DNA of 24,378 nt from a virus. The notes under the pieces are model-generated. The model saw only the letters and a list, made by a program, of their open reading frames with translations. It searched no databases and had not been told where the DNA came from. How positions within the stretch are numbered: the first letter of the stretch is position 1; each line of letters starts with the position of its first letter. The translations under genes and the position numbers were made by a program. Below are positions 11,017-23,306 of the stretch, piece by piece. The stretch lies in the IMG/VR virus record IMGVR_UViG_3300039050_000033, positions 1 through 24,378 of that record; one strand, given 5' to 3'.

Positions 11017-13920
11017 ATGAGCCAGCACGATATGATAATTGATAACTCCACGGGAGCCAACGTGAGAGCAGACATCAATAATGCACTAGGAGCAATAGCA
11101 ACAAATAATTCAGGATCTTCAGCACCATCTACAAACTACGCTAGTCAATATTTTGCAAATACTAATACTAGTATGATGCAGCTTAGAAATACTGCTAACA
11201 ATGCTCATATAAATTTATTTAGTCTTGCTGGCGCACCTGCTTTTCCATTAGATGGAACAATTAATAGTATAAATATAGGAAAAGGAGCAAACTCTGTTGC
11301 TGGTAACACTGTTTTTGGAGAAAGTGCTTTAGATGCTTCTGTTACTGGTGGACTTAACACGGCTATAGGAAAAAATTCCTTATCAGCTTTAACTAGTGGA
11401 ATAAAAAACACTGCGGTAGGCCATGATTCTTTATTGTTAAACACTACTGGTACATTGAATGTAGCTATAGGTCAAGCTACTTTAGATGCTAACACTAGTG
11501 GGTCACAGAATACTGCCTGTGGAGAGGGAGCTTTGTCAGAAAATACTACCGCTAATAATAATACAGCTGTAGGATATCAAGCTTTAGAAGAAAATACAAC
11601 TGGTGCAAATAATGTAGCCGTTGGTTCTAGAGCCTTAGATGCGAACACTACAGGAGGTTCAAACACAGTTGTCGGAGATCAAGCTTTAAGTGAAAATTCA
11701 ACAGGAGGGTCTAATACAGCAGTTGGACAAGGTGCTTTATATGCAAATACAACAGCTTCTAACAATACAGCTGTAGGTAAAGATGCATTAGTAGCAAACA
11801 CAACTGGTGCTGGTAACGTTGCTGTTGGATATCGTGCCGCAGATTCAAATACTACAGGAACAAGACTTGTTGCGATTGGTCTTGATGCACTAGCTACAAG
11901 CACTACTGCAAATGATAATACTGCTGTTGGTTATAATTGCTTGAACGCAAATACTTCTGGGACTAATAATACAAGCATTGGTGGGTATTCTTTAGATGCT
12001 AATACTACAGGATCTCAAAACTCTGCTCTAGGTATTGGTGCTTTAGGTAATAACACAACTGCTGATGACAATACTGGACTCGGTTTTTCTGCTTTACATA
12101 TAAATACCACTGGAACATCCAACGTAGCCGTAGGTGCTTATGCCTTAAGAAATAACACAACTGCGTCTGATAACGTAGCTTTAGGAAAAAATGCGTTATA
12201 TACAAACACAACTGGTTCTTCAAACACAGCGTTAGGCTCTGTATGTCTAGATGAGAATACGACAGGAAGTAATAATACTGCTATAGGTAGGTCAACTTTA
12301 GGAGAGAATACTACTGCAAGTGATAATACTGGAGTTGGTTACAACGCATTAGGAGCAAACACAACTGGAGCATCAAATGATGCTGTAGGAGCTAATGCTT
12401 TAGATGCTAATACAACAGGCAGTAACAATGCTTCTTTTGGATCTCATTCATTAGGTGCAAATACAACAGGATCTTCAAACACTGCGGTTGGAAAACAAGC
12501 ACTTCATAACAACACAACTGCTGATAATAATGTTGCTGTTGGTAAAGATTCTTTATTTACTAATAATACAGGAGCTAATAATATAGCTGTAGGAACATCG
12601 GCTTTATATTCAAACACAACTGCGTCTGATAACGTAGCTTTAGGAAAAAATGCCTTATATACAAACACAACTGGATCTCAAAATACTGCTTTAGGTTCGC
12701 TTGCCTTAAGATATACGACCACAGGTACTCATAATGTTGGTATTGGTTATCTTGCTTTAGATGCCAACACAACTGGAGGAAGTAATGTAGCAGTTGGCTC
12801 TAGAGCCTTAGATGCAAACACAACGGCAAGTAATAATGTAGCTTTAGGTTATGAAGCATTAACAGCAAACACAACTGGAGGTAATAATGTAGCATTAGGT
12901 ACTTTTGTTTTAGATGCTAATACTACGGCTAGTGATAATGTAGGAGTTGGACATAATGCCTTAACTACAAACACAACTGGAACATATAATGTAGCAATAG
13001 GTTCAGCGTGTTTAGATGCTAATACCACTGCTGATCATAATACTGGGGTAGGATATGCAGCTTTAGGAGCAAACACGACAGGAGAAAAAAATACTGCGGT
13101 GGGTAAGGACTCTTTATTATTAAACACCACTGGCACATTGAATGTAGCTGTAGGTCAAGCCGCTATGGATGCTAATACAACAGGTTCACAAAACACTGCT
13201 TGTGGAGAGGGGGCTTTATCAGAAAATACTACTGCAAATGACAATACTGCGGTAGGCTATCACTCCCTAGAAGTAAACACAACTGGAACGCAAAACACAG
13301 CTGTAGGTAAAGATGCTTTAGATGCTTGTACAACAGGTAGTTCAAATGCAGCGTTTGGTTTTGAAGCTGGCACTGCGGTAACTACAGGGTCTGATAATAC
13401 AATGATCGGCCAAGAAGCTGGACAGGATATAACAACAGGAGGTAATAATGTAGTAATTGGACATGACGCTGGCAGATCCAATTCACCTTCTGGAAGTTTA
13501 ACTACAGACAACAATGTTGTGTGTTTAGGAAATAATGATATTACAAGTTTCTATTGCAAAATTTCTACAATACAAACTTCTGACATAAGAGATAAAACTG
13601 ATATTAATGACTTTACATATGGACTTTCATGGGTTGAAAAGCTACGCCCTGTGACTTACAAATGGGATATGAGATCAAAATATGAAGATGGTGTACCTAA
13701 TGGAAGTAAAAAGGAAGAAAAATTACATCTTGGATTTATTGCACAAGAAGAATTAGAAATAGAAAAAGAGCATGGTTTTGCAAATGATAAAAACGATATG
13801 CTTCTTGTTAATAAAAATGCTGATGGAAATTATGGTATGCATTATGACCGACTTGTACCAATTCTTGTTAATGCTATAAAAGAGCTATCCGTAAAAGTCA
13901 CAGCCCTCGAAGCAGGGTAA
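11017..13920 (+). CDS. repeat side fibre with self-cleaving S74 chaperone domain
   Basis: This is a 967-residue trimeric fibre or adhesin. Residues 1-99 are a non-repeated N-terminus, presumably the attachment end. Residues 100-813 are 42 consecutive 17-residue repeats of the form VGxxALxxNTTGxxNTA, with no insertion or deletion, suggesting a beta-helix or YadA-head-like stalk. Residues about 850-967 are an intramolecular chaperone of the peptidase S74 family, with the Ser855-Asp856 dyad in TSDIRDKTDI, then LRPVTYKWD, LGFIAQEE and a C-terminal LVNAIKEL coiled coil. In that family the domain guides trimerisation and then cleaves itself off at the serine. It follows gpJ directly. Host range is likely to depend on this gene as well as on gpJ. 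Confidence 0.85.
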   Translation: MSQHDMIIDNSTGANVRADINNALGAIATNNSGSSAPSTNYASQYFANTNTSMMQLRNTANNAHINLFSLAGAPAFPLDGTINSINIGKGANSVAGNTVFGESALDASVTGGLNTAIGKNSLSALTSGIKNTAVGHDSLLLNTTGTLNVAIGQATLDANTSGSQNTACGEGALSENTTANNNTAVGYQALEENTTGANNVAVGSRALDANTTGGSNTVVGDQALSENSTGGSNTAVGQGALYANTTASNNTAVGKDALVANTTGAGNVAVGYRAADSNTTGTRLVAIGLDALATSTTANDNTAVGYNCLNANTSGTNNTSIGGYSLDANTTGSQNSALGIGALGNNTTADDNTGLGFSALHINTTGTSNVAVGAYALRNNTTASDNVALGKNALYTNTTGSSNTALGSVCLDENTTGSNNTAIGRSTLGENTTASDNTGVGYNALGANTTGASNDAVGANALDANTTGSNNASFGSHSLGANTTGSSNTAVGKQALHNNTTADNNVAVGKDSLFTNNTGANNIAVGTSALYSNTTASDNVALGKNALYTNTTGSQNTALGSLALRYTTTGTHNVGIGYLALDANTTGGSNVAVGSRALDANTTASNNVALGYEALTANTTGGNNVALGTFVLDANTTASDNVGVGHNALTTNTTGTYNVAIGSACLDANTTADHNTGVGYAALGANTTGEKNTAVGKDSLLLNTTGTLNVAVGQAAMDANTTGSQNTACGEGALSENTTANDNTAVGYHSLEVNTTGTQNTAVGKDALDACTTGSSNAAFGFEAGTAVTTGSDNTMIGQEAGQDITTGGNNVVIGHDAGRSNSPSGSLTTDNNVVCLGNNDITSFYCKISTIQTSDIRDKTDINDFTYGLSWVEKLRPVTYKWDMRSKYEDGVPNGSKKEEKLHLGFIAQEELEIEKEHGFANDKNDMLLVNKNADGNYGMHYDRLVPILVNAIKELSVKVTALEAG
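11314..13455 (+). repeat. 42 tandem 51-bp (17-residue) repeats in the fibre gene
   Basis: Every unit is exactly 51 bp, starting from FGESALDASVTGG. Units differ mostly at two variable pairs and at synonymous sites. Units 3-6 (from about 11404) and 36-39 (from about 13087) are near-copies 33 units apart. Units 17-18 and 26-27 are near-copies 9 units apart and share a nearly identical DNA run from 12154 and 12613. Confidence 0.9.
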
Positions 13921-18759: not shown

Positions 18760-18964
18760 TGAAATAGTTTTGTAAAACAGTTTTGATAAATTGATTGGGA
18801 GGAACATTATTGTCTTTGCAATAAGTTCTTATTTTTTGAGCAAGTCGATCATCAGTTCTAATCGAAAAGATGTTTCTGTTGTAATCTTTATGGCGATCTA
18901 GCTTGCGTTCGTGAAGTTGATTTAGAACTTGTTTCCCTGCAAATTCTGCTTCTTCCTGAGTCAT
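18752..18964 (-). CDS. ribbon-helix-helix-like protein, 70 residues
   Basis: The C-terminal 45 residues show the Arc/CopG-like order: a strand (RNIFSIRTDD), a helix (RLAQKIRTYCKDNN) and a second helix (PPNQFIKTVLQNYF). RHH dimers bind DNA through the paired strands, usually as repressors. An N-terminal helix (EEAEFAGKQVLNQLHERK) precedes it. The ATG overlaps the ERF stop as ATGA, so it is made together with the annealing protein. It could auto-regulate the early operon by binding one of the palindromes seen here; that link is inference. Confidence 0.5.
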   Translation of the reverse strand: MTQEEAEFAGKQVLNQLHERKLDRHKDYNRNIFSIRTDDRLAQKIRTYCKDNNVPPNQFIKTVLQNYFND

Positions 18965-19731
18965 AGGGTTGAATCAATTTCATTTATTAGAAGTGTAAGG
19001 AACTTACCTTGTTCAGCAGTTCTTATGTCAGCAGGGCCAATTTTTTCTGCTGTTATGCCGTATTGTTTTTTGTATTTGTTCAATACTTCATCTTTTTTGT
19101 CAGGATACTGTTGAGATAAGTTCATAATTTTTTTTACAAGAACATCAAGAACAGGTTTCGCTATGGGGTTACCATAGTTCTTATCTTCAATGGATTCAAT
19201 AGGTTCTCCTTCATCGTTTGGTTTGCTGGGAGTTCTTTTTATACGATCCTCTTTTTCAGCAGTTGATTGAGTTGTTGATTGAGTTAATGACATAGCATCA
19301 TCATCTTCCTCAGAACCTATACCATAAGCTGCACCTAATGCATATCTTCTCGTATATGTAATTGCAATACCAAGATCATGCATGATGTTATAACCTCTAA
19401 GTTCTTTTAAAGGTAACTTGCTTTCTAATTTTTCCTCTTTGAAATACAAAGTCGTAATACAGATTGTAAGTACTTTGCCATCTTCAAGAGGTAAATAATC
19501 AAAAGTTTGTGTATGAGCAATACCAAGTTTCGCTGCTGGTTGTATTGCTCTAAGAACATCTTCAAGAGTTGAATACTTACGTTCAGTAGTTACAGATTTA
19601 TTGGTTCTTTTATCTTTTCTAGTTTCTTTTGCTGTACCTGTCCTATCAGCAGATTGAACCTGTGATTGAAAGATGGCAAGAGCTTCAGAAAGAGTTTGTG
19701 GTGAATCTGTTGTAGATTTCTTTGTGGTCAT
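18961..19731 (-). CDS. erf: ERF-family single-strand annealing protein
   Basis: This 256-residue recombinase promotes annealing of complementary single strands in phage recombination. The family pattern is plain: RKYSTLEDVLRAIQPAAKLG (about 52-71), then a strand with an FDYLPLEDGKVLTICITTLY core. The signature GIAITYTRRYALGAAYGIGS followed by EEDDDA (about 125-150) closes the domain. In family proteins this reads (Q/G)xAxTYxRRYxLxxxxGIxxxxDDD. The remaining C-terminus is charged and linker-like, ending in a helical piece. RusA, a RecB-like nuclease and another PD-(D/E)XK protein are in the same operon. Two TAGTATACTA palindromes and a TTAATTAAAC leader lie upstream. Confidence 0.85.
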   Translation of the reverse strand: MTTKKSTTDSPQTLSEALAIFQSQVQSADRTGTAKETRKDKRTNKSVTTERKYSTLEDVLRAIQPAAKLGIAHTQTFDYLPLEDGKVLTICITTLYFKEEKLESKLPLKELRGYNIMHDLGIAITYTRRYALGAAYGIGSEEDDDAMSLTQSTTQSTAEKEDRIKRTPSKPNDEGEPIESIEDKNYGNPIAKPVLDVLVKKIMNLSQQYPDKKDEVLNKYKKQYGITAEKIGPADIRTAEQGKFLTLLINEIDSTL

Positions 19732-19766
19732 GTTTAATTAAGTATTAGTATACTATTAGTATACTA
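19732..19766 (-). promoter_or_regulatory. tandem palindromes and leader upstream of erf
   Basis: Two perfect TAGTATACTA palindromes (19746-19755 and 19757-19766) sit 11 bases apart, one helical turn, so a dimeric protein could bind both on one face. Each holds TATACT, a possible -10. TTAATTAAAC lies directly before the ATG. The distal palindrome overlaps the RusA stop region. Confidence 0.5.
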
Positions 19767-20216
19767 ATCACAAATAGAGGATATTGCAATATATGCTCCT
19801 GGCAATTCATCTTTATTTACATATCTTTTCTTTGTATTAAGTTCGACAACAAGAGAATCATCTTCCAACACACTTCCACCTGCACTAACAGACAATCCAT
19901 CCAAAGTAGATCTTGAAAGCTTATCAATATCACCATTACCTCTACTTGTGCAATATTGAGGTGCTGAAGGTTTTAAGACTTCCGCATTCTTACCAGTTCC
20001 ATAATGTGATTTAGGTCTAGGAAAAACAAATTCTATATCTGCTTTTACAGGCAAGTTCAATGCTCCGCTGTTATAACATTCAAGTGCAGCTTCCTTAACG
20101 TCATTTCTCCAAGGTTTTACCTTCTTAGATGCTTCGATCATCGCACCATATCTTGTTAATGTCTTAGATCCTTGAGGAGCAGGGATTCCTACTACCCTTA
20201 TTGTTATTTCGTTCAT
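19764..20216 (-). CDS. rusA: RusA-family Holliday junction resolvase
   Basis: This 150-residue dimeric endonuclease cleaves four-way junctions made during recombination or replication. The N-terminal strand and loop (ITIRVVGIPAPQGSKTLTR) and the central FVFPRPKSHYGTG are typical. The catalytic aspartates are seen in GNGDIDKLSRSTLDGL (D96, D98) and LEDDSLVVEL (D119, D120), followed by KKRY. The start at 20216 overlaps the upstream stop as ATGA; an ATG at 20252 would add 12 residues from the previous gene's reading region. It follows the AcrVA2-like gene and precedes erf. Confidence 0.87.
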   Translation of the reverse strand: MNEITIRVVGIPAPQGSKTLTRYGAMIEASKKVKPWRNDVKEAALECYNSGALNLPVKADIEFVFPRPKSHYGTGKNAEVLKPSAPQYCTSRGNGDIDKLSRSTLDGLSVSAGGSVLEDDSLVVELNTKKRYVNKDELPGAYIAISSICD

Positions 20217-21640
20217 GCTGCGTTTCCTAATACAAAAACTGGTTGATACCATCTCATTTTACGTTCCTTACGTTTAGCTCCTTTCAATACTGTATGCCAA
20301 TGACCTCTTCGCCAATGTGGTCTTAACTTTCTTTTATTTCCAGTAACAATCAACATATCTTCATCCTGTTTTGGTTTCAGTTTGACAACTCTTGTTGTAA
20401 AGTCTTTTCCCACCCAACAAATAGCTCTTGGTTTGATATCACTTTGTACTTTGTATTTTTCTTGTAAAGGTACAATTTTAGATGGGATATATTCTTCAGT
20501 AATAATATCTGGCTGTTGATTCATTAGTAGAAGCAGATTTACAACTGTCTTAAAATGATCTTGTATTATGTGATTCTCAACTTCTGTAAATTGCAGTATT
20601 TTAAATATCTTTAAATTTTTCCAGTTAAATGCGTAATAATAAATTTTATTCGGTTCGATTACAAAATTAACAAATACATCAAATTTAAATTTTGGATTTA
20701 TCAACATATCTTTAGCATCATTTATCCCCCATTTATGACATTCAATAAATGAATATTTGATATTATTAATCTTATTTGAATGCAATAAAAAGAAACTTGG
20801 ATTGACTACGTTTGGATTTTCTGTAAGTTGTAAGTTATCGATATTTGTATTTATCAATGAATTACATAAATCATCTTTTAAGTAGTAAGCAGGAGAGTCA
20901 TAGATGTATTGTTTACTTCTGTGTTTACAGTTGATATGTTCTCTTGCCAAATCCTGCCAGGAATAAAAGTTTTGAGGTGATTTGTATTTGTATAAGAATT
21001 GTCCTCTGGTAATTTTTGGTTTAGTTTCAAGTACAACTTCTTTTACTTCAGTTTCCTGTTTCTTACGTTTTTCTGCGAAAGCCTCGGATAAATCTTTCTT
21101 AACTTTTTGTTTGTTAAGTTTTGGAAGTTCATTTGGATCATTAACAGTAATCCATTTATCACCTACTTTCATTTTTAGGTTTCCTGTATTTGGATGAACC
21201 CATAAATCACCTTCTTTTGCATCACCTCTACGTTCAACTATTTTTCTTTCATTTGTTTCTTCTTCGACAGTATAAAGATTTGAATCATTTGTATTAAAAA
21301 ATAAAGCTCCATCCATTGATACAGTTTGACCACTAGGACTTGTAATGGTTGGTTGAGATTGAATAATTTTTTCTTTACTTCTGTATTTCCCACCTCTTTT
21401 TTTATATTCAGACTTTATCCAAGCTGTAGCATACGATGATGGATAAACCTTGAATTTGTTTTTAGCTTCCTGTTTTATCTTTGCAAAAAGACTTGTATTA
21501 AGACATTGATTTTGTAACTTTCCATAAGCCTTATCAATATATTTTTGTTTACCTTTTTCTTTGTAATATTTTTCTAATCGTTTTTTATATTCTTCTTTTG
21601 ATAAACGCTTACCTTTTTCAAACTCTGATGGCTTTGGCAT
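20213..21640 (-). CDS. DUF5872-like protein with AcrVA2-like C-terminus
   Basis: This is a 475-residue protein. Residues 55-87 (KQEAKNKFKVYPSSYATAWI and then KSEYKKRGGKY) look like DUF5872, common in viral proteins. Residues 108-167 look like a small beta domain (GALFFNTNDSNLYTV, GDLWVHPNTGNLKMKV). Residues about 245-470 resemble the anti-Cas12a protein AcrVA2: YDSPAYYL, a hydrophobic helix then LLLLMNQQPDII (369-380), ICWVGKDFTTRVVK (407-420) and LRPHWRRGHWHTVLKGAKRK, then RWYQPVFV (439-470). The end of AcrVA2 as I recall it has RPHxRRGHWH, RW and PAVFV at the same spacing. AcrVA2 blocks Cas12a production; related domains occur widely, so anti-CRISPR action here is a hypothesis. It is coupled to rusA by ATGA. 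Confidence 0.7.
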   Translation of the reverse strand: MPKPSEFEKGKRLSKEEYKKRLEKYYKEKGKQKYIDKAYGKLQNQCLNTSLFAKIKQEAKNKFKVYPSSYATAWIKSEYKKRGGKYRSKEKIIQSQPTITSPSGQTVSMDGALFFNTNDSNLYTVEEETNERKIVERRGDAKEGDLWVHPNTGNLKMKVGDKWITVNDPNELPKLNKQKVKKDLSEAFAEKRKKQETEVKEVVLETKPKITRGQFLYKYKSPQNFYSWQDLAREHINCKHRSKQYIYDSPAYYLKDDLCNSLINTNIDNLQLTENPNVVNPSFFLLHSNKINNIKYSFIECHKWGINDAKDMLINPKFKFDVFVNFVIEPNKIYYYAFNWKNLKIFKILQFTEVENHIIQDHFKTVVNLLLLMNQQPDIITEEYIPSKIVPLQEKYKVQSDIKPRAICWVGKDFTTRVVKLKPKQDEDMLIVTGNKRKLRPHWRRGHWHTVLKGAKRKERKMRWYQPVFVLGNAA

Positions 21641-21708
21641 CTTTAATTAAATAATAGATATATTCATATATAACTATATACCAAATTATATCATCCTTCA
21701 AGTTCTTA
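21641..21708 (-). promoter_or_regulatory. AT-rich promoter region for the AcrVA2-like gene
   Basis: These 68 bases between two leftward genes hold a consensus -10, TATAAT (complement of 21685-21690), 45 bases before the ATG. TTAATTAAAG lies directly before the start codon. No strong -35 is visible. It would allow the AcrVA2-like, rusA and erf genes to be expressed apart from the upstream early genes. Confidence 0.4.
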
Positions 21709-22191
21709 TTAGATTCTGATATCTTTCCATTCAATTTTATCCAAAGGACAGTGATAAAACTCCTGACTAACATTTTCATAGTTCCCACATTTCACTTTTT
21801 TTGTAAACCAATGATCAAAAGTATTTGTTTTAACTAAAGCAGCATGAGTCCTTGTCTTATTTAAAATGTAATAACAAGTAGGAGGATTAGGTAATGTTCT
21901 ATCATAAGAATCTTTTTCACAAACCATAAAATTTTTAAAAGGCCAATCGTTTAAATTAGTAAATTCAGCATTCAATCCTTTAACTTCAATTCTTACCCAT
22001 TTCTCTTTATCTTGTATAAATAAATCCCCATCATCTGCATATTCTTTATGACTAGAGGCGGTAGGAGAACATTTCTGTCCATTGATACGAATGGTAAAAC
22101 CATGATGATGAAAATAATGAGCAACAATAAATAAAGCTTTTGTACTTTCTTTTAAGTGTTCTGTGAATTTTTTATGATTCTCTGTTGTCAT
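21709..22191 (-). CDS. PD-(D/E)XK nuclease-like protein, 160 residues
   Basis: The segment YADDGDLFIQDKEKWVRIEV and then KGL (51-73) gives D56 and E69-x-K71 on a strand-turn-strand, the restriction-endonuclease active-site pattern. The region before it is helical and histidine-rich (FIVAHYFHHHGF). After it, a motif NDWPFKNFMVCEKDSYDR and a strand with a cysteine follow (CYYILNKTR). The fold is that of a small endonuclease, but the substrate is unclear: Holliday-junction, nicking or restriction-like are all possible. The start overlaps the stop of the upstream gene as TAATG, with a GAAGG Shine-Dalgarno. It is separate from the RecB-like nuclease upstream. Confidence 0.65.
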   Translation of the reverse strand: MTTENHKKFTEHLKESTKALFIVAHYFHHHGFTIRINGQKCSPTASSHKEYADDGDLFIQDKEKWVRIEVKGLNAEFTNLNDWPFKNFMVCEKDSYDRTLPNPPTCYYILNKTRTHAALVKTNTFDHWFTKKVKCGNYENVSQEFYHCPLDKIEWKDIRI

Positions 22192-22361
22192 TAACCTTCA
22201 AGTTCTCTGATACGTCTTTGAATATCATCAAATGCTACAACATATTCTTTATCTGTAATCTCTTGTTGAAACCATTGCCATTCAATCGTTGCAATCTCAT
22301 TATTTAATTTTGTAATCAAATACTTTTTTCTTTGATCAAGTTCCCTATAGAAACATTTCAT
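22191..22361 (-). CDS. hypothetical coiled-coil peptide, 56 residues
   Basis: The start at 22361 gives an ATGA overlap with the preceding gene; an ATG at 22376 would add five residues. The peptide is helical and charged (MKCFYRELDQRKKYLITKLN, then FDDIQRRIRELEG) and has no membrane segment. Its stop overlaps the nuclease start as TAATG. It may bind a partner from the same operon. No family was recognised. Confidence 0.55.
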   Translation of the reverse strand: MKCFYRELDQRKKYLITKLNNEIATIEWQWFQQEITDKEYVVAFDDIQRRIRELEG

Positions 22362-22564: not shown

Positions 22565-22644
22565 TTTTTACTCCACTCAGCGATAAGTTTTTTTAGCTCC
22601 TCGATACGTTTACGAGCAGCTTCTATTCTTTCTTCTTTTTTCAT
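22561..22644 (-). CDS. 27-residue mini-protein
   Basis: A short frame encodes a lysine/glutamate-rich amphipathic helix (MKKEERIEAARKRIEELKKL, then IAEWSKK). It is supported by a good Shine-Dalgarno (AAGAGGTG) just before the start, a TAATG overlap with the nuclease stop and an ATGA overlap with the next gene. A 27-residue single helix could act as a small partner protein, or translation of the frame could merely couple its neighbours. Confidence 0.55.
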   Translation of the reverse strand: MKKEERIEAARKRIEELKKLIAEWSKK

Positions 22645-23306
22645 TAAAACACCTCTTGTTTAGCTTCAAACTTTTCCCAGGCTTCCTGCCAAGCATCTTT
22701 ACATCTTTGCACAGGTTGATCTTCATTTAACATACATTTTCCCTTATATGCCCAGACAGTATTACAGATATCTGGCTCTATATCACAATTTAGTTTCAAC
22801 ATTTCGATGTAGCAACCTAATTGTCTATCAGTTTTATAAGGTTCTGTCCAACCTGTTTTTTTCTTAAAATCAAACTTTAAGGCAGATGCACCTTTAGTTT
22901 TAAGATCAATCAATCTAATCTTCTTAGCCTTAGTGTCATAACCAATAAGATCAAGTTGACCTCCTAAGTCTTTATCAGGATTGCTCATCATATATTCAAC
23001 ACCCATAGGTTCAAAATGTGTGAACAGTTCCAGCTCAAACAATGGGATAGCCCATTCTTCATATTCACCCATATCGATATCATCAGCACCTAACATCTTC
23101 TGTTCTAAACAATAATGAACAGTTTCTCCTCTTGGTTGCCATATATGTCTTAGTCTTTCAATATTCTTTTTGGCTTCTTCATCTAAATCACTACATACTT
23201 GAGTAGTTGAATATTTTAGCCATTTATTAGACTTCTCACAAAAATATTTATGTGTAGCTTCATGTCTGAAGATAGGAAGTCTGGAAAGTTTTTGAATAGT
23301 TTTCAT
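22644..23306 (-). CDS. RecB/Cas4-type PD-(D/E)XK exonuclease
   Basis: This 220-residue protein has the full active-site set of the RecB-like nuclease group: H64 in RGETVHYCLE, E104, D119 in GGQLDLIGYD, D134-x-K136 in IRLIDLKTK, and Q162 with Y166 in TDRQLGCYIEML. It probably digests one strand of a DNA end to supply single strands for the ERF annealase, as phage exonuclease-annealase pairs do. Cysteines C176 (about) and near the C-terminus (CKGKCML-like) are too few and wrongly placed to claim a Cas4 iron-sulphur cluster. A TTAATTAAAC leader precedes the ATG. Confidence 0.8.
   Translation of the reverse strand: MKTIQKLSRLPIFRHEATHKYFCEKSNKWLKYSTTQVCSDLDEEAKKNIERLRHIWQPRGETVHYCLEQKMLGADDIDMGEYEEWAIPLFELELFTHFEPMGVEYMMSNPDKDLGGQLDLIGYDTKAKKIRLIDLKTKGASALKFDFKKKTGWTEPYKTDRQLGCYIEMLKLNCDIEPDICNTVWAYKGKCMLNEDQPVQRCKDAWQEAWEKFEAKQEVF

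Follow-up and report, generated by a model that had tools for sequence, protein, structure and literature searches.

Does a phage protein that resembles the anti-CRISPR AcrVA2 also act against Cas12a, and if not, what might it do instead? The question is raised by a 475-residue protein encoded in a virus record of 24,378 bases, the whole of which was analysed (hereafter, the window). Tail genes occupy the plus strand of the record and a recombination/replication operon the minus strand, the latter encoding an O-like protein, an exonuclease, small proteins, the 475-residue protein, RusA, Erf and an Arc-like repressor. An initial annotation had described the protein as a DUF5872-like front fused to an AcrVA2-like domain and translationally coupled to rusA. 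The homology, the fusion and the coupling all hold, but a specific link to Cas12a is not supported.

20213..21640, minus strand: gene for the 475-aa protein, an open frame with a DUF5872-like front, a small module and an AcrVA2/FinQ-like domain
21371..21520, minus strand: DUF5872-like module, residues ~41–90; PF19197 in 10/22 relatives; fastest-evolving part
21131..21250, minus strand: small module, residues 131–170, RKIVERRGDAKEGDLWVHPNTGNLKMKVGDKWITV; near-invariant in 22 rows, median dN/dS 0.09
21017..21130, minus strand: variable charged linker, residues 171–208, from the alignment of relatives; median dN/dS 0.32
20216..21010, minus strand: AcrVA2/FinQ-like domain, residues 211–475, from phrog_6160, an independent HMM and the AlphaFold model
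20516..20575, minus strand: long helix with VVNLLLLMNQQ, residues 356–375, equivalent to LLPYLLWLCVAE of AcrVA2, from predicted secondary structure and alignment
20294..20317, minus strand: HWRRGHWH, residues 442–449, of which H442, R444, H447 and H449 are superfamily-invariant
21673..21701, minus strand: promoter-like TTGAAG-N17-TATAGT, from upstream alignment and scan; kept in most relatives with the gene order
19764..20216, minus strand: rusA-type Holliday junction resolvase (PF05866, E 1.5e-11; phrog_140, 1.6e-23)
18961..19731, minus strand: Erf-type single-strand annealing protein of the same operon (PF04404, E 2.9e-11)
22644..23306, minus strand: PD-(D/E)XK superfamily exonuclease of the same operon (PF12705, E 5.7e-6; phrog_298, 8e-11)

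An accessory gene in a conserved position of the operon

The frame is open over exactly 20213–21640 on the minus strand, and 25 loci homologous to it were found in viral contigs. Together with a median dN/dS of 0.11 in the AcrVA2-like domain, these loci mark it as a living gene. The protein gave no usable match to Pfam, and none to NCBIfam or PADLOC.

Coupling of the gene to rusA is seen in most of its close relatives. The longest rusA open reading frame (162 aa, starting at 20252 inside the 475-aa gene) is longer than needed, and the conservation of an ATGA junction suggests that the true start is probably the ATG at 20216, which overlaps the stop codon of the 475-aa gene. Every compared relative that has this gene order keeps the junction, in agreement with the coupling originally proposed. 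At four loci (L007, L013, L019 and L023) the gene instead lies away from rusA with a different upstream region, and the syntenic virus AG-345-A17 lacks it: there, the places of rusA, the 475-aa gene and its preceding neighbour are taken by a probable DNA methyltransferase and a small gene resembling a nuclease. The 475-aa gene is thus accessory, and its slot in the operon is a conserved one. The replacement segment in AG-345-A17 corresponds to L214:8026-9056, and its nuclease-like gene encodes 110 aa.

The TATAAT reported upstream of the gene is present but unconserved, the conserved pair being TTGAAG-N17-TATAGT. A promoter scan of the region returned promoter-like sites in numbers no greater than chance gives. 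The copies at L007, L013, L016, L019 and L023 have in common an upstream TTGACA-N17-TAATAT-like element, which is a better promoter match than the sequence upstream of the rusA-coupled copies.

The C-terminal domain is a distant relative of AcrVA2

The last ~265 residues of the protein are remotely homologous to AcrVA2. Residues 438–471 matched AcrVA2 in the PDB (7ci1, E 0.0026) in a single-sequence search, and residues 347–473 matched phrog_6160 among the PHROGs profiles (E 1.9e-11), which bears out the claimed resemblance at the level of profiles. Other matches to this profile include AcrVA2 of Moraxella phage Mcat4 (6e-107), the Shewanella Y11 gene that was published under the name AcrVA2, and proteins of Leptospira, Pasteurella, Lactobacillus, Erwinia and Salmonella phages. 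An independent HMM, made from viral relatives with the HWRRGHWH rows left out, gave the 475-aa protein 49 bits. When the 22-row alignment of close relatives (A1) was compared with 12 diverse members by hhalign, only the last 37 columns were aligned because A1 is too uniform, and diverse profiles were consequently needed. With hhalign, a window-type profile covered the whole domain of other marine relatives (E 7e-37), and profile comparison joined these relatives to the wider superfamily over the last ~110 columns (1.2e-16). A control run of hhalign with the sequence reversed gave no match (prob 4.9). Identity between the window domain and AcrVA2 itself is about 15–18%. Direct sequence alignment with AcrVA2 reaches no further than the last ~115 residues; placement of the first half of the domain relies on its fold and on intermediate sequences. 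The order of elements noticed initially (LLLLMNQQPDII ... ICWVGKDFTTRVVK ... RPHWRRGHWH ... RWYQPVFV) agrees with the family alignment.

The fold was predicted with AlphaFold for the C-terminal domain only, using an alignment of 105 diverse relatives, and the resulting model is of moderate confidence (pLDDT 76, pTM 0.74); the full-length protein, modelled with 22 near-identical relatives, reached a pLDDT of 43. AcrVA2 was the sole significant PDB match of the domain model (7ci1; Foldseek E 1.1e-4, prob 1.00, 264 alignment columns). VIA-align superimposed 188–204 residues at Z 8.2 over model residues 23–267, such that the structural match extends well beyond the RRGHWH motif, and the next unrelated chain scored Z 5.7. 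This value belongs to colicin N, over 87 residues, a match that was discounted because the arrangement is a common one. The TM score against AcrVA2 is modest (0.40), and the details of the first half of the domain are for that reason not to be trusted. Among viral models, a Mediterranean phage protein was the best match (4.5e-16), followed by jumbo-phage relatives. By both profile and fold, the C-terminal domain of the window protein is a distant but real relative of AcrVA2.

Four residues, H442, R444, H447 and H449, are the only ones invariant across the 105 sequences, and together form an HxRxxHxH motif; G411, R445, W448, G454, W464 and P467 are nearly invariant, and the downstream G454 and W464 of the superfamily motif are both present in the window protein. 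Its HWRRGHWH aligns with the HIRRGHWH of AcrVA2 and FinQ, a plasmid protein discussed below; the four invariant positions are residues 291, 293, 296 and 298 in Mcat4 AcrVA2 and 310, 312, 315 and 317 in FinQ. The motif may be catalytic, or may only bind RNA, the ribosome or a peptide. The pocket residues proposed by docking for the Shewanella homologue are unconserved even in Mcat4 AcrVA2 and FinQ, and their mapping gave no information.

AcrVA2 of Moraxella phages (PDB 7ci1, 7ci2) thus shares with the window protein the fold, the order of elements and the HxRxxHxH close to the C-terminus. The N-terminal region of AcrVA2, by contrast, is unrecognised in the window protein, which adds the DUF5872-like and small modules. 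In a quick tree, the Moraxella and Shewanella AcrVA2 rows group as a single clade (SH-aLRT 100). The deepest split (support 93) separates AcrVA2, plasmid FinQ, and jumbo-phage and prophage proteins from a marine-phage HWRRGHWH clade that includes the window protein.

The N-terminal modules are exchangeable

Among the 22 close relatives, residues 131–475 hardly change, and it is the front that differs in length and sequence. Median dN/dS values follow the same division, at 0.43 for residues 1–100, 0.09 for residues 131–170, 0.32 for the linker and 0.11 for the AcrVA2-like domain. The proposed DUF5872-like front is borne out by matches to PF19197 (DUF5872) in 10 of the 22 relatives (best E 1.2e-8), whereas the window's own copy gives no match to this Pfam family. 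The one bit score seen among the relatives' matches, that of L008, lies below the cut-off (25.8 against 27.5 bits). The relatives carry one or two copies of the module, with two stretches in L008.

Uncharacterised marine HWRRGHWH proteins (L158, L166, L157, L147 and L182) belong to the same clade and share 34–41% identity with the window C-terminal domain, but differ in front of it. Three of these sister proteins (L157, L147 and L182) have DUF5824 in place of DUF5872, and the other two have no N-terminal extension, as is also the case for L178, L187 and L189, so that the AcrVA2-like domain stands alone. Since the fronts differ (DUF5872, DUF5824 or none), the AcrVA2-like back domain is the shared unit, and the exchangeable modules probably tune which partners it encounters or the site at which it acts. 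A literature search returned no experimental work on proteins of the marine clade.

Plasmid FinQ belongs to the same superfamily

We were led to FinQ, the fertility inhibition protein of IncI plasmids, by a note that the depositor of Salmonella phage SA002 had left. FinQ matches phrog_6160 over residues 76–347 (8e-48) and an AcrVA2-only HMM at 1.1e-28, and a one-sequence BLASTP comparison with Mcat4 AcrVA2 gave 26% identity over 282 residues (E 4e-18; L035:1234-2319, L027:1640-2614). Judged by these alignments, FinQ and AcrVA2 are plain homologues, and FinQ is a closer relative of AcrVA2 than is the window protein. Members of the superfamily occur in 604 plasmid records, many of them annotated finQ. 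In the literature searched (no preprints and few subscription papers), FinQ was never named together with AcrVA2 or anti-CRISPRs, and the link may be known elsewhere. The initial annotation had suspected that such domains serve a wider purpose; this suspicion is supported, although the better functional clue, plasmid FinQ, had been missed.

FinQ is described as ending the transcripts of the F tra operon at multiple sites without Rho (PMC8744291) and is, in this respect, a mobile-element gene that lowers the expression of a chosen operon. Unlike the window protein, it carries neither DUF5872 nor any other fused module. Jumbo-phage proteins from Erwinia and Salmonella phages (RisingSun gp126, SA002, pEa_SNUABM_40) are phrog_6160 members like the window protein but have a single domain of ~330–360 aa, and are annotated as hypothetical or as 'mycothiosynthase'. 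Erwinia phage RisingSun gp126 (L033:1622-2623) has the AcrVA2-type fold, and its annotation as a 'putative mycothiosynthase' looks wrong.

Probable host and the proposed link to Cas12a

The tail J protein of the window phage is closest to those of the Prochlorococcus siphophages MED4-117 and MED4-184 (45–46% identity over 95–98%), and most DNA similarity is to AG-345-A17, a virus recovered from one individual marine cell, for which a literature search by name found no paper. Both comparisons point to marine picocyanobacteria as the probable hosts. Marine picocyanobacteria are practically without CRISPR (PMC11316352, PMC10820777), and there is no sign of Cas12a in the likely host of the window phage, a point of difference from AcrVA2. 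Of 50 genomes from many phyla that bear a superfamily member, just one, Moraxella lacunata, encodes Cas12a.

These observations leave the specific Cas12a link unsupported, and they make it very improbable that the window protein truly works, like AcrVA2, as an anti-CRISPR against Cas12a or any other type V effector. Such a role would be in keeping with the homology to AcrVA2 and with similar assignments for Shewanella phage Y11 and for huge phages (PMC7162821), but the superfamily is found mostly without Cas12a, the phage looks picocyanobacterial, and the marine clade is separate from that of AcrVA2. There would be no justification for recording the window gene as an anti-CRISPR.

A candidate translation-coupled silencer

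AcrVA2 brings about translation-dependent decay of cas12a mRNA via the nascent N-terminus of its product (review PMC13131331; meeting report PMC12908700). Chiefly because both members with known effects, AcrVA2 and FinQ, reduce the mRNA of their targets, our best reading, to which we give slightly better than even chances, is that the window protein is a translation-coupled silencer of a target mRNA, probably one other than that of Cas12a. Its mode of action is modelled on the published behaviour of these two proteins, the homology, modular build, operon and conservation having been observed directly. The C-terminal domain would most likely act on messages during translation, recognising the nascent peptide of one chosen protein, whereupon the mRNA for that protein would be lost. 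The probable target would be a different protein of the host, or one belonging to a rival mobile element, made early in infection. The invariant HxRxxHxH, the purifying selection, the swapped N-terminal modules and the broad spread without Cas12a all favour such a silencer. Against it stand the description of FinQ as a transcription terminator rather than an mRNA-decay factor, the low identity to AcrVA2, the short reach of the direct alignment with it, the moderate model confidence, the modest TM score and the lack of conservation of the docked pocket residues.

The position of the gene suggests a different role, in which the protein serves its recombination neighbours (RusA, Erf and the exonuclease), for example as a DNA-binding or nuclease partner whose DUF5872-like front binds DNA and whose HxRxxHxH domain acts on DNA or RNA. 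We consider this unlikely: the translational coupling to rusA and the operon order conserved in most close relatives would be expected of such a partner, but at L007, L013, L019 and L023 the gene is apart from rusA and has another upstream region, one syntenic phage manages without it, and neither AcrVA2 nor FinQ nor most homologues have recombination genes as neighbours. Somewhat less probable again is regulation of the phage's own genes, with the mRNA for one phage protein lowered at a set time. The early-operon place, the promoter-like site of its own and a mechanism common to the family would suit this role, yet AcrVA2 and FinQ act on foreign genes and the fast evolution of the N-terminus fits conflict better than housekeeping.

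The silencer reading can be extended, in a form that we regard as speculative and rather doubtful, to AcrVA2, FinQ and the marine clade as one superfamily of peptide-programmed silencers, in which HxRxxHxH would cut the mRNA under translation or set off its decay, swapped modules would retarget or localise the domain, and phages of CRISPR-less picocyanobacteria would use it against a non-CRISPR target. AcrVA2 has been described as the first case of prokaryotic translation-coupled mRNA decay turned against a defence system. That FinQ and a large marine-phage clade share its domain would make a single unusual anti-CRISPR part of a broad class of silencers carried by mobile elements. The shared domain also points to a single invariant motif for mutation, offers F conjugation in E. 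coli as a second genetic system in which to study an AcrVA2-type mechanism, and warns against the annotation of AcrVA2-like genes as anti-CRISPRs.

Other features of the record

A 160-aa gene at 21709–22191 (minus strand) carries a D...EVK pattern resembling that of a PD-(D/E)XK nuclease and gave no family match and no PDB match. It is absent from all compared relatives and is flanked by a 17-nt imperfect direct repeat (21690–21706 and 22190–22206), which is the 3' end of the gene upstream of it; the absence and the repeat together make it look like a recent insertion between that upstream gene and the 475-aa gene. On the plus strand, 11017–13920 encodes a 967-aa tail-fibre-like protein with many short repeats of the NTTGxxNTAVGxxAL type, the end of which resembles a cleaved chaperone domain (SDIRDKTDI).
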